Below are positions 1 through 6,978 of a stretch of DNA of 64,000 nucleotides, one piece after another (the stretch's first letter is position 1; each line of letters starts with the position of its first letter). The stretch spans positions 682,001-746,000 of the forward strand of contig NC_022111.1 in NCBI RefSeq assembly GCF_000163055.2. Direction: 5' to 3'. Made by a program: the position numbers and the translations under genes. The notes under the pieces are model-generated. The model searched no databases and had not been told where the DNA came from. It worked only from the letters and a program-made list of their open reading frames with translations. The DNA is from Prevotella sp. oral taxon 299 str. F0039 (GTDB taxonomy: Bacteria; Bacteroidota; Bacteroidia; Bacteroidales; Bacteroidaceae).

Positions 1-68
1 TTTTAAACTTCAAACCATCTGCATCTATTAAGGAAGAATTGAAGAAAGGAGGTTTAGCAGATGTCTAA
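1..68 (+). CDS. HU/IHF-family DNA-binding protein, C-terminal end only
   Basis: The frame that is open from the window edge to the TAA at 66-68 reads LNFKPSASIKEELKKGGLAD-V. This matches the last strand and helix of HU/IHF proteins, where an F-K-P/A-x-x-x-L-K-E pattern is usual. Only about 21 codons are inside the window, so the start and the DNA-binding arm cannot be seen. Its stop overlaps the ATG of the next gene by 8 bases, which suggests translational coupling of two HU-related genes. Assignment rests on this short tail and on the neighbour. Confidence 0.6.
   Translation, partial: LNFKPSASIKEELKKGGLADV
45..53 (+). promoter_or_regulatory. Strong Shine-Dalgarno sequence before the HU/LysM gene
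   Basis: AAAGGAGGT ends 7 bases before the ATG at 61 and lies inside the coding tail of the upstream HU gene. Bacteroidetes seldom use strong Shine-Dalgarno pairing, so a near-perfect one is unusual here. It fixes the start at 61 and suggests independent initiation or reinitiation on the overlapping gene. Confidence 0.6.
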
Positions 69-1437
69 AAACTTGTTTCTTATTGAAATGCTTACTTCTA
101 AAATGGGTTTAGAAGTGGCAGAAGCAGAGACCTTTATCTCCGTCATGTTTAAGGTCGTAAATGAAGGCTTGAGAGAAGATAAGCTGGTAAAGATAAAAGG
201 ATTAGGCACTTTTAAGCTAACAAAGGTGAGTGCAAGAGAAAGTGTTGATGTGAATACAGGTGAGCGTATTGTTCTTGAAGGACGAGATAAAATCTCGTTT
301 ACTCCTGATAATTATATGCGAGACTTGGTAAATAGTCCATTTGCTCAATTCGAAACGGTTGTCCTTAATGATGGAGTTGACTTTTCTGCTATTGATGAAA
401 AATATGTGTTAAATGAATTAGAAGATAATTCTTCACTCCTTTTGTTTAATGAAGATTCACTCGACCCGAGTGCTGATGAATCTAAAAATATTCTGTCTTC
501 TATTGAAGAAGTAAAAGAAACATTGGCTCAATTTAATGAGATAGAAGAAGAAAAGACTGTAGATGATCCTATTTTAAGAACAGAGATAGAGACAAACAAA
601 TTATTAGTTGTGGAGCAAGAAGAAAGTAAGGAAGATGTTAAAGGGCAGGTGTCTGCACCCTTTTCTTTTCAACTTTCTCCGCAGCAGTTATCTGATTTGA
701 ATGCAATAGAAAGCAATTCTGGTAGCGAAGAAAAAGCAGAAGTTTCTGAAAATTCTTATGTTACAATTGAAAAAGACTCTCTTCCGTTTGAAGAAAAATC
801 ACAGCTCATTGTAAAAACAGAAGAAAAAGAAGAGAAGGGAACCAGCGAAGAAGACTCTGAAGAAGTGGAAGATATAGAAGAATCAACTTCTCGAAGTTAT
901 GTAAAGCCTTTGTTATTTTCCTTTCTACTCATTTTATGTTTAGCTGTTGGACTTGGTGTTGGATATTATTCTTTTCAGCATCAATCTAAAGAAATAGCAG
1001 TAACTCCATTGTCACAAACTACCAATAAGGTAGCTGTTCCTGCAAAGAAAACTATCAATCCTACTGAAGTTGTAGATAGCTCGCAAAAGAAACAGGCTGC
1101 AGCAATGGTAGATTCTATCACTAAAAAGAATACTCAAGCAGTGGTTGTTAAGACTGAAAAGCCTAAACTTAAAGAAGAAAAACCAGCTTTCAACTCAAAA
1201 CAATATAACAGAGACCCTCGTGTTCGCACTGGTGCCTATATAATAATAGGTGTAGAAAAAGAGATAGAAGTAAAGTCTGGACAGACCTTATATTCGTTAA
1301 GTCAAAGATATTTGGGTCCAGATATGGAATGTTATGTTGAAGCCATTAATGGTAAAAAGAACTTTGAAGCAGGAGAAAAGATAAAAATTCCTATTTTAAA
1401 ACTAAAGAAAAAGAAACATATAAAAAAGAAAGAATAG
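61..1437 (+). CDS. Membrane-spanning HU-domain protein with LysM domain
   Basis: The 458-residue protein has three parts. Residues 1 to about 95 resemble an HU/IHF domain: two N-terminal helices, then the K-G-L-G-T-F-K-L strand, an arm-like stretch with V-N-T-G-E, and a closing F-T-P strand. Residues about 100-275 form a long Glu/Ser-rich linker. A hydrophobic helix spans about 284-303. The far side holds a Lys-rich linker and a LysM-like repeat at about 401-450 (V-K-S-G-Q-T-L-Y-S-L-S, then a late I-N and K-I-P-I). The expected topology puts the DNA-binding half in the cytoplasm and the LysM half in the periplasm. LysM domains bind peptidoglycan, so a nucleoid-to-wall link is possible; that role is inference. 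Confidence 0.75.
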   Translation: MSKNLFLIEMLTSKMGLEVAEAETFISVMFKVVNEGLREDKLVKIKGLGTFKLTKVSARESVDVNTGERIVLEGRDKISFTPDNYMRDLVNSPFAQFETVVLNDGVDFSAIDEKYVLNELEDNSSLLLFNEDSLDPSADESKNILSSIEEVKETLAQFNEIEEEKTVDDPILRTEIETNKLLVVEQEESKEDVKGQVSAPFSFQLSPQQLSDLNAIESNSGSEEKAEVSENSYVTIEKDSLPFEEKSQLIVKTEEKEEKGTSEEDSEEVEDIEESTSRSYVKPLLFSFLLILCLAVGLGVGYYSFQHQSKEIAVTPLSQTTNKVAVPAKKTINPTEVVDSSQKKQAAAMVDSITKKNTQAVVVKTEKPKLKEEKPAFNSKQYNRDPRVRTGAYIIIGVEKEIEVKSGQTLYSLSQRYLGPDMECYVEAINGKKNFEAGEKIKIPILKLKKKKHIKKKE

Positions 1438-5511: not shown

Positions 5512-6978
5512 TTATTTAATAATATGCATATGAGCCACAGAAAAAAGAACTAGGTATCCAAGAATCATTGTGATAAAACCCATTACTCCTCCAATCTTCA
5601 TCATTTGCTTTTGATCTACTAGACCCGTAGAATGGGCAATAGCATTTGGAGGAGTACTAATAGGCAAGCACATCGCTGCAGAAGCAGAAATTGCGATACC
5701 AATTAATATTGTAATGCCACCACCTATAGCGTCAAGATTACTTCCCATCCCTTTGCATACAACAGCTAAAATAGGCACAAGAAGAGCAGCTGTGGCTGTA
5801 TTTGAAATAAAATTAGAAAGTATATAGCAAGCAAATCCTGAGATTACAAGAATTACCAAGGGATGCCACTTGTCGAAAGTAATATTCTTAATAACAATCT
5901 CTGCTAATCCCGATTCATTCAATGCAAGGCCTAAAGTAAATCCGCCCGCAACCATCCAGATAACACCCCAATTAATATATTGTAGGTCTTTTGCTGTTAC
6001 TACACCTGTAATTGCAAATACAGTAATAGGCAACATTGCTACAGTATTAGCTCCAATTCCTGTTATCTTATCTAAAAGCCACAATAAGATGGTACAAATA
6101 AAAGTCACAGCCACAACAGCTGATCTCCAATTACGCTGCACCTTTCCATCTATTTGTAAATGAATTACTTTTTGCTTAAAAGGAAAAAAGGTTTTAAGAA
6201 AATACCAACCAATAAGTAACAGCACGATGGTTAAAGGCATCATAAATAGTAACCAGTCTCCAAAACCAATTCCTGCGTTAAGACCATTCACGTCATTTAG
6301 ATATTTTAAGGCAATTGCATTTGGTGGTGTTCCGATTGGAGTACCCATTCCACCGATGTTAGCTGCAACAGGAATACCTAGAGTTAAGGCTATACGTCCT
6401 TTTCCCTCAGGTGGGAGAGCTTTAAAAACAGGAGTTAAGAAGGTAAGCGTCATAATGGCAGTTGCTGTGTTGGACAGAAACATTGAGAATACTCCTGTGA
6501 TCAGAATAAATCCTAATAGCACATTTTCTGATTTTTTTCCAAATGGTTTTAATAAGGTTCTTGCCAGCAAAACATCAAGACCAGCCTTGCTTGCAGCGAT
6601 TGCAAGAATGAAGCCCCCTAAGAAAAGAATAATGATTGGATCAGCAAATGTAGCCATAATATCTTCGTGATTGATGAGTTCTTGCTTATCAAAGCCATCT
6701 CTCATGAAATTAAATGCATTGTCGGAAATTGTAAAAAGCATAATACCAATTACCGAAACAGAGGTTGCCCACGATGGAATTGCTTCAGTAATCCATAGTA
6801 TTGTTGCAAAAGCAAATATGGCAATAACACGTCGTTGAATAACCGTTAGGCCGTCGATGCCATAATAATCTAGTGGAAGATTCCATAAAATTAAAGTAAT
6901 GAGAACTGCAACTGCAAAGAGAATGCATTTCTTTAAGTTGAAACTTTCCGATAAAACGTTTTGTTCTTGGTTTGACAT
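5512..6978 (-). CDS. DASS/SLC13-family sodium:anion symporter
   Basis: The 488-residue integral membrane protein has 10 or more hydrophobic helices. It carries the two S-N-T motifs of the divalent anion:sodium symporter family (residues 169-171 and 392-394), each near a T-P-P-N-A-I-A motif (G-T-P-P-N and S-T-P-P-N), which form the substrate and sodium sites. Members carry di- or tricarboxylates or sulfate; the substrate cannot be told from the sequence. It is alone on its strand, with gene-free gaps on both sides. Confidence 0.9.
   Translation of the reverse strand: MSNQEQNVLSESFNLKKCILFAVAVLITLILWNLPLDYYGIDGLTVIQRRVIAIFAFATILWITEAIPSWATSVSVIGIMLFTISDNAFNFMRDGFDKQELINHEDIMATFADPIIILFLGGFILAIAASKAGLDVLLARTLLKPFGKKSENVLLGFILITGVFSMFLSNTATAIMTLTFLTPVFKALPPEGKGRIALTLGIPVAANIGGMGTPIGTPPNAIALKYLNDVNGLNAGIGFGDWLLFMMPLTIVLLLIGWYFLKTFFPFKQKVIHLQIDGKVQRNWRSAVVAVTFICTILLWLLDKITGIGANTVAMLPITVFAITGVVTAKDLQYINWGVIWMVAGGFTLGLALNESGLAEIVIKNITFDKWHPLVILVISGFACYILSNFISNTATAALLVPILAVVCKGMGSNLDAIGGGITILIGIAISASAAMCLPISTPPNAIAHSTGLVDQKQMMKIGGVMGFITMILGYLVLFSVAHMHIIK

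Follow-up and report, generated by a model that had tools for sequence, protein, structure and literature searches.

The gene pair and the large protein

The window, which is the whole analysed stretch of 64,000 nucleotides from Prevotella sp. oral taxon 299 str. F0039, begins with two overlapping genes on the plus strand. The first encodes a small HU protein of 97 amino acids (PF00216, 84.3 bits); its 3' end occupies positions 1–68, and its start lies 226 bases before the window (5775–6068 in the stretch L002). The second gene, at 61–1437 on the plus strand, overlaps the first by 8 bases and encodes a protein of 458 amino acids (HU-TM-LysM). Upstream, the order is ftsY and then rimO, both named from Pfam matches, and rimO ends 4 bases before the small HU gene. 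The sequence AAAGGAGG is found at positions 45–52, within the end of the small HU gene and 8 bases upstream of the start codon (ATG) of HU-TM-LysM.

The large protein, encoded throughout on the plus strand, starts with an HU domain (residues 7–91, positions 79–333), followed by a conserved post-HU segment (residues 88–112, positions 322–396), for which the genus-level alignment gives the consensus ELVNKPFSQFETVVLNDGVDF. An acidic and, judged by composition and low pLDDT, mostly unstructured linker of predicted cytoplasmic location comes next (residues 113–280, positions 397–900) and leads to the core of a membrane helix (residues 284–302, positions 910–966). Beyond the helix, a predicted periplasmic linker (residues 303–390, positions 967–1230) connects to a LysM domain with a beta-alpha-alpha-beta order (residues 391–450, positions 1231–1410).

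The AlphaFold2 model reached block pLDDT values of 89–94 for residues 11–90 (HU) and 391–450 (LysM). In this model, residues 1–94 adopt an HU fold with two N-terminal helices, a beta saddle with an arm and a C-terminal helix. Block pLDDT fell to 30–55 for residues 121–280, and the stretch 113–275 consists of 29% aspartate and glutamate with a net charge of −34. The membrane helix was modelled from 281 to 311 (block pLDDT 79, 82 and 65). A sequence-only reading had proposed an N-terminal HU-like domain, a long acidic linker, one membrane helix at about 284–303 and a LysM-like C-terminus, and had called for structure prediction of both ends against the HU and LysM folds. Both folds were obtained, the LysM assignment is joined by a family profile match, and all four elements were recovered.

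Conservation of the pair

In all 41 loci of a first set, the small HU gene directly precedes the large one on the same strand; these loci were chosen for having the large gene, come from Bacteroidales and Balneolaceae, and comprise 40 stretches around large genes plus L003. The distance between the two genes ranges from −50 to +14 bases, with overlaps of 4, 8 or 11 bases in 32 of the 41. A second scan covered 34 loci (11 genomes from the first set and 23 new ones) and found the small HU before the large gene in every one, in 33 of them inside the set distance limit; the remaining locus is at −86 because its large open reading frame was called from an early start codon. The small-HU model was matched with at least 93.5 bits in 22 of 148 genomes of the order, each match adjoining a large gene; 20 of these genomes were themselves rows of the model, and G093 and G119 were not. 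Two further pairs scored 87 bits (G169), which touches the range of ordinary HU, and 80 bits (G164), which falls within it. The two genes form a real, conserved module whose anatomy is clear and whose function is proposed below.

Both protein ends were matched in all 21 other genomes of the same genus with a completeness of at least 90%. With our own models, the pair together with a long open reading frame was found in 24 of the 148 genomes of the order, G169 being counted without assigning its C-terminus to LysM, so that the pair is no general need of the order. In a phylum sample, a long open reading frame matching the HU part was present in 16 of 18 genomes of a Balneolaceae-like family, and among the matches listed none was a long open reading frame from other orders of the same class; the search model leans toward Prevotella-like rows, and divergent cases may therefore be missed. 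The sequence-only reading had suggested looking for the architecture in Bacteroidetes genomes, and the layout does occur across Bacteroidales and Balneolaceae.

The closest named genome is Hoylesella nanceiensis, with 75% identity, which places the window in the order Bacteroidales. Public protein sets already hold records with precomputed Pfam LysM and Bac_DNA_binding matches; the entries with both domains have no protein name, and named relatives are labelled after the HU domain or with a generic DNA-binding term, with neither function nor partner given in the rows examined. Two variants were seen beside the typical cases. G169 (L070, 1495–2646) has both genes, overlapping by 8 bases, and the C-terminus after the helix is not obviously LysM. 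G140 (L067, 1195–1746) encodes an HU-type protein of 183 amino acids that has no membrane helix and ends in a post-HU-like segment, MKELVNAPFNCFEPV.

Two HU subfamilies

In a tree of 93 HU domains (42 small, 42 large and 9 ordinary chains), built by a quick method on 95 columns and with many inner forks unresolved, the small, the large and the ordinary HU each fall on one side of a branch, with SH-aLRT values of 94, 97 and 88. The 8-base overlap with a normal HU gene that had been read from the sequence is partly supported: the overlap stands, as does the layout, and the topology considered in the same reading is likely, but the partner belongs to a separate HU subfamily and is not a normal HU.

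Within this genome the small and the large chain share 18.5% identity, and the families differ at several positions in a reciprocal manner. Position 55 is arginine or lysine in 38 of 42 small chains, valine in 34 of 42 large chains and arginine in all nine ordinary chains; position 51 is glutamate in 26 of 42 small and lysine in 25 of 42 large chains; and position 76 is valine in 34 of 42 small and lysine or arginine in 40 of 42 large chains. At the tip of the arm, the small chains carry P63 (40 of 42) and the large chains V, P or I (40 of 42); the row alignment of the 42 large proteins shows valine in 24, proline in 13, isoleucine in two, glutamate in one and a gap in two. The window protein has V64 there, which agrees with the earlier remark that its arm lacks the usual proline tip. 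The HU/IHF family is defined by its fold, and other members also lack this proline. R58 and T65 are kept in 38 and 40 of the 42 large chains, respectively.

Separate clades with reciprocal residues suggest a heterodimer, in which the two subunits would have an IHF-type division of labour. As in the IHF alpha/beta and HU alpha/beta heterodimers, there is an HU fold with beta arms and two diverged subunits. In contrast to these, one of the subunits carries a membrane anchor and a LysM domain, the genes overlap, charge is reduced and fewer of the key basic residues are present; that the two chains pair, and form a DNA-bending dimer of the HU/IHF kind, is predicted from the pairing of their genes.

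Net charge over the HU part is 0 in both pair chains of this genome and +7 in its ordinary HU. The group means are +2.8 for small, +0.2 for large and +5.4 for ordinary chains, the last calculated from eight rows leaving out the divergent C_L034, and in 12 Balneolaceae pairs both chains average −1. Two basic residues of ordinary HU, R55 and K80, are missing from the large chain, and the small chain of Balneolaceae has changed arms. Given the low charge and these two missing residues, the pair may bind DNA weakly, specifically or no longer at all.

Membrane topology and the LysM domain

One central helix is found in all 42 aligned relatives of the large protein. Counted over the eight residues flanking the helix, lysines and arginines are more frequent on the N-terminal side in 29 rows, equal in 11 and less frequent in two. 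Together with the single helix, these counts support the proposed topology with the N-terminus inside and the C-terminus outside, which is likely by the charge rule. The linker on the presumed cytoplasmic side is net negative in 41 of 42 rows, and the presumed periplasmic linker measures 48–155 residues. The HU domain is thus probably cytoplasmic and the LysM domain probably located outside the inner membrane.

The family profile matched the LysM domain of Kbp with an E value of 5.2e-13, and the model built from the 56-row alignment aligns here with 4uz2 and 7vcm. As a single sequence, the window protein's own LysM match falls under the Pfam cut-off, five of the 42 full-length rows taken singly matched PF01476 at E values of 0.01 or below, and prediction of the C-terminal piece by itself, with no alignment, yielded a poor model. 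All 42 rows keep N430 and P444, and LysM-type sequence is present in two distant lineages, more clearly outside the genus of the window (e.g., L092). Not every protein with a LysM domain acts on peptidoglycan: Kbp, the best profile match, is named a potassium-binding protein. Binding to peptidoglycan or a chitin-type glycan would here be a predicted property.

Downstream neighbours

Seventeen of the 42 loci (17 of 30 in Bacteroidales and none of 12 in Balneolaceae) continue downstream with same-strand genes for MoxR, a DUF58 protein, a BatD-like protein and BatA, and 16 of these 17 also encode a second BatA-like protein. The number of independent cases is smaller than 17, as several loci belong to close relatives. 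The MoxR gene starts 119–243 bases away in 16 loci and 1652 bases away in one. No bat genes were found downstream in 13 Bacteroidales loci, the window included, or in the 12 Balneolaceae loci, within stretches of about 5–7 kb for most loci, 1.5 kb for L121 and 18.6 kb for the window, in whose first 20 kb no bat gene was found. The best MoxR match of the window's genome is at position 883715 of its contig, about 200 kb away.

In the window, the large gene is followed by three tRNA genes, tRNA-Gly (gcc) at 1779–1852, tRNA-Leu (gag) at 1984–2068 and tRNA-Gly (gcc) at 2089–2162. They lie where many other Bacteroidales loci carry bat, which may reflect a rearrangement. The link to bat suggests work at the envelope and would fit a tether or a regulator alike. 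As summarised in PMC3557215, deletion of all bat genes in Leptospira biflexa left growth, morphology and resistance to oxidative stress unchanged.

Comparison with known systems

The same genome encodes a second protein with HU domains and a membrane helix. It has 363 amino acids (107363–108454 of the contig; 2364–3455 in L132, minus strand), tandem HU-CCDC81_bac_1 and HU-CCDC81_bac_2 domains, a membrane helix at 204–222 and a C-terminal SPOR domain (PF18174, PF18175 and PF05036); a weak hydrophobic stretch at 10–28 lies inside its HU domain. Both proteins thus have an N-terminal HU, one strong membrane helix and a C-terminal wall-associated domain. They differ in that the HU-CCDC81/SPOR protein has two HU domains per chain, belongs to other HU families and carries SPOR where ours has LysM, and among the listed open reading frames of at least 100 amino acids in L132, no HU gene lies beside it. 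The window protein scored 15.5 bits against PF18175 (cut-off 35), PF18174 was not listed, so that it is no tandem HU-CCDC81 protein, and the Pfam search gave no SPOR match up to an E value of 10, with LysM in that place instead.

Of the 148 genomes of the order, 126 have a PF18174 match above the cut-off, compared with 24 that carry the HU-TM-LysM pair; the presence of SPOR alongside it was checked in the window's genome. Four genomes with the LysM design (G063, G119, G166 and G175) are among the 17 genomes of the order without a PF18174 match, and there a replacement of the HU-CCDC81 design is possible. Burroughs et al. reportedly described the bacterial HU-CCDC81 clade in 2017 and predicted a role in chromosome partition, so that the general notion of an HU that spans the membrane and carries a wall domain would already be in print as a prediction. 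The LysM design with an HU partner was recognised in no paper found by literature searches.

A functional analogue may be RocS of Streptococcus, which acts in chromosome segregation and has an N-terminal DNA-binding domain tied to the membrane (PMC11500499, PMC13042908). RocS differs in that a coiled coil precedes an amphipathic membrane-targeting helix at its C-terminus (PMC11500499), and the two abstracts mention neither a wall domain nor an HU fold (PMC11500499, PMC13042908). The window protein does not have such an end, but a mid-chain hydrophobic helix of at least 19 residues and a folded C-terminal domain. As far as these abstracts describe it, RocS would be the nearest studied functional analogue found.

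Possible function

We propose that the small HU, made from a gene overlapping that of the large protein, would pair with the latter's HU domain on the cytoplasmic side as an asymmetric HU/IHF-like heterodimer. The acidic linker would hold this head off the membrane surface, the single helix would cross the inner membrane with its N-terminus inside, and the periplasmic linker would bring LysM to the peptidoglycan. Such a complex might hold chromosomal DNA loosely by the envelope and couple the position or spread of the nucleoid to the wall. Heterodimerisation, binding to DNA and to peptidoglycan, and the tethering itself are inferred. That a two-subunit HU is anchored in inner membrane and wall and keeps DNA near the envelope, with pairing and both kinds of binding predicted, has in our judgement an even chance of being right. 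The fuller account, a dedicated two-subunit HU that mechanically couples nucleoid and peptidoglycan apart from the housekeeping HU, runs parallel to HU-CCDC81/SPOR and works with the Bat complex in many Bacteroidales, is put forward tentatively and is somewhat more likely to be wrong than right.

The anatomy might also serve a transmembrane one-component regulator, with LysM sensing the state of the wall and an IHF-like, specific HU pair controlling envelope genes such as bat. The bat operon downstream in 17 of 42 loci would agree with this, and IHF-alpha scores best among the NCBIfam HU/IHF models, though at 43.7 bits it is far below the cut-off of 111. We nevertheless regard a regulator as unlikely, given the 13 Bacteroidales and 12 Balneolaceae loci without bat downstream and the distant MoxR match in the window's genome; long flexible linkers also seem ill-suited to signalling through one helix.

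Somewhat less probable again is a scaffold, that is, an HU pair that has given up DNA binding and works, at the envelope or divisome, as a protein-protein dimer. For the HU domains of eukaryotic CCDC81, a protein-protein scaffold role has been proposed, and net charges near 0, the absence of R55 and K80 from the large chain, the altered arms of the Balneolaceae small chains and weak cross-matches to CCDC81-type HU models are all consistent with it. However, the large chains mostly keep R58, T65 and a V, P or I arm tip, and the small chains keep R/K55 and P63. An ordinary HU that acquired a membrane anchor and whose LysM is a remnant without function, giving membrane proximity but no wall binding, is improbable: the window's LysM match below the Pfam cut-off would fit this, but the LysM-type sequence in two distant lineages, the invariant N430 and P444 and the position of the large HU domain outside the ordinary HU clade argue against it.

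To our knowledge, chromosome positioning and segregation in Bacteroidota are poorly understood. Should the pair bind DNA as well as the wall, as the tethering proposal holds, it would link the nucleoid directly, through protein, to the peptidoglycan on the other side of the inner membrane. In that case it would also point to a function for HU paralogues whose only annotation is 'HU family DNA-binding protein', and would be a neighbour worth studying alongside the bat (aerotolerance) operon.
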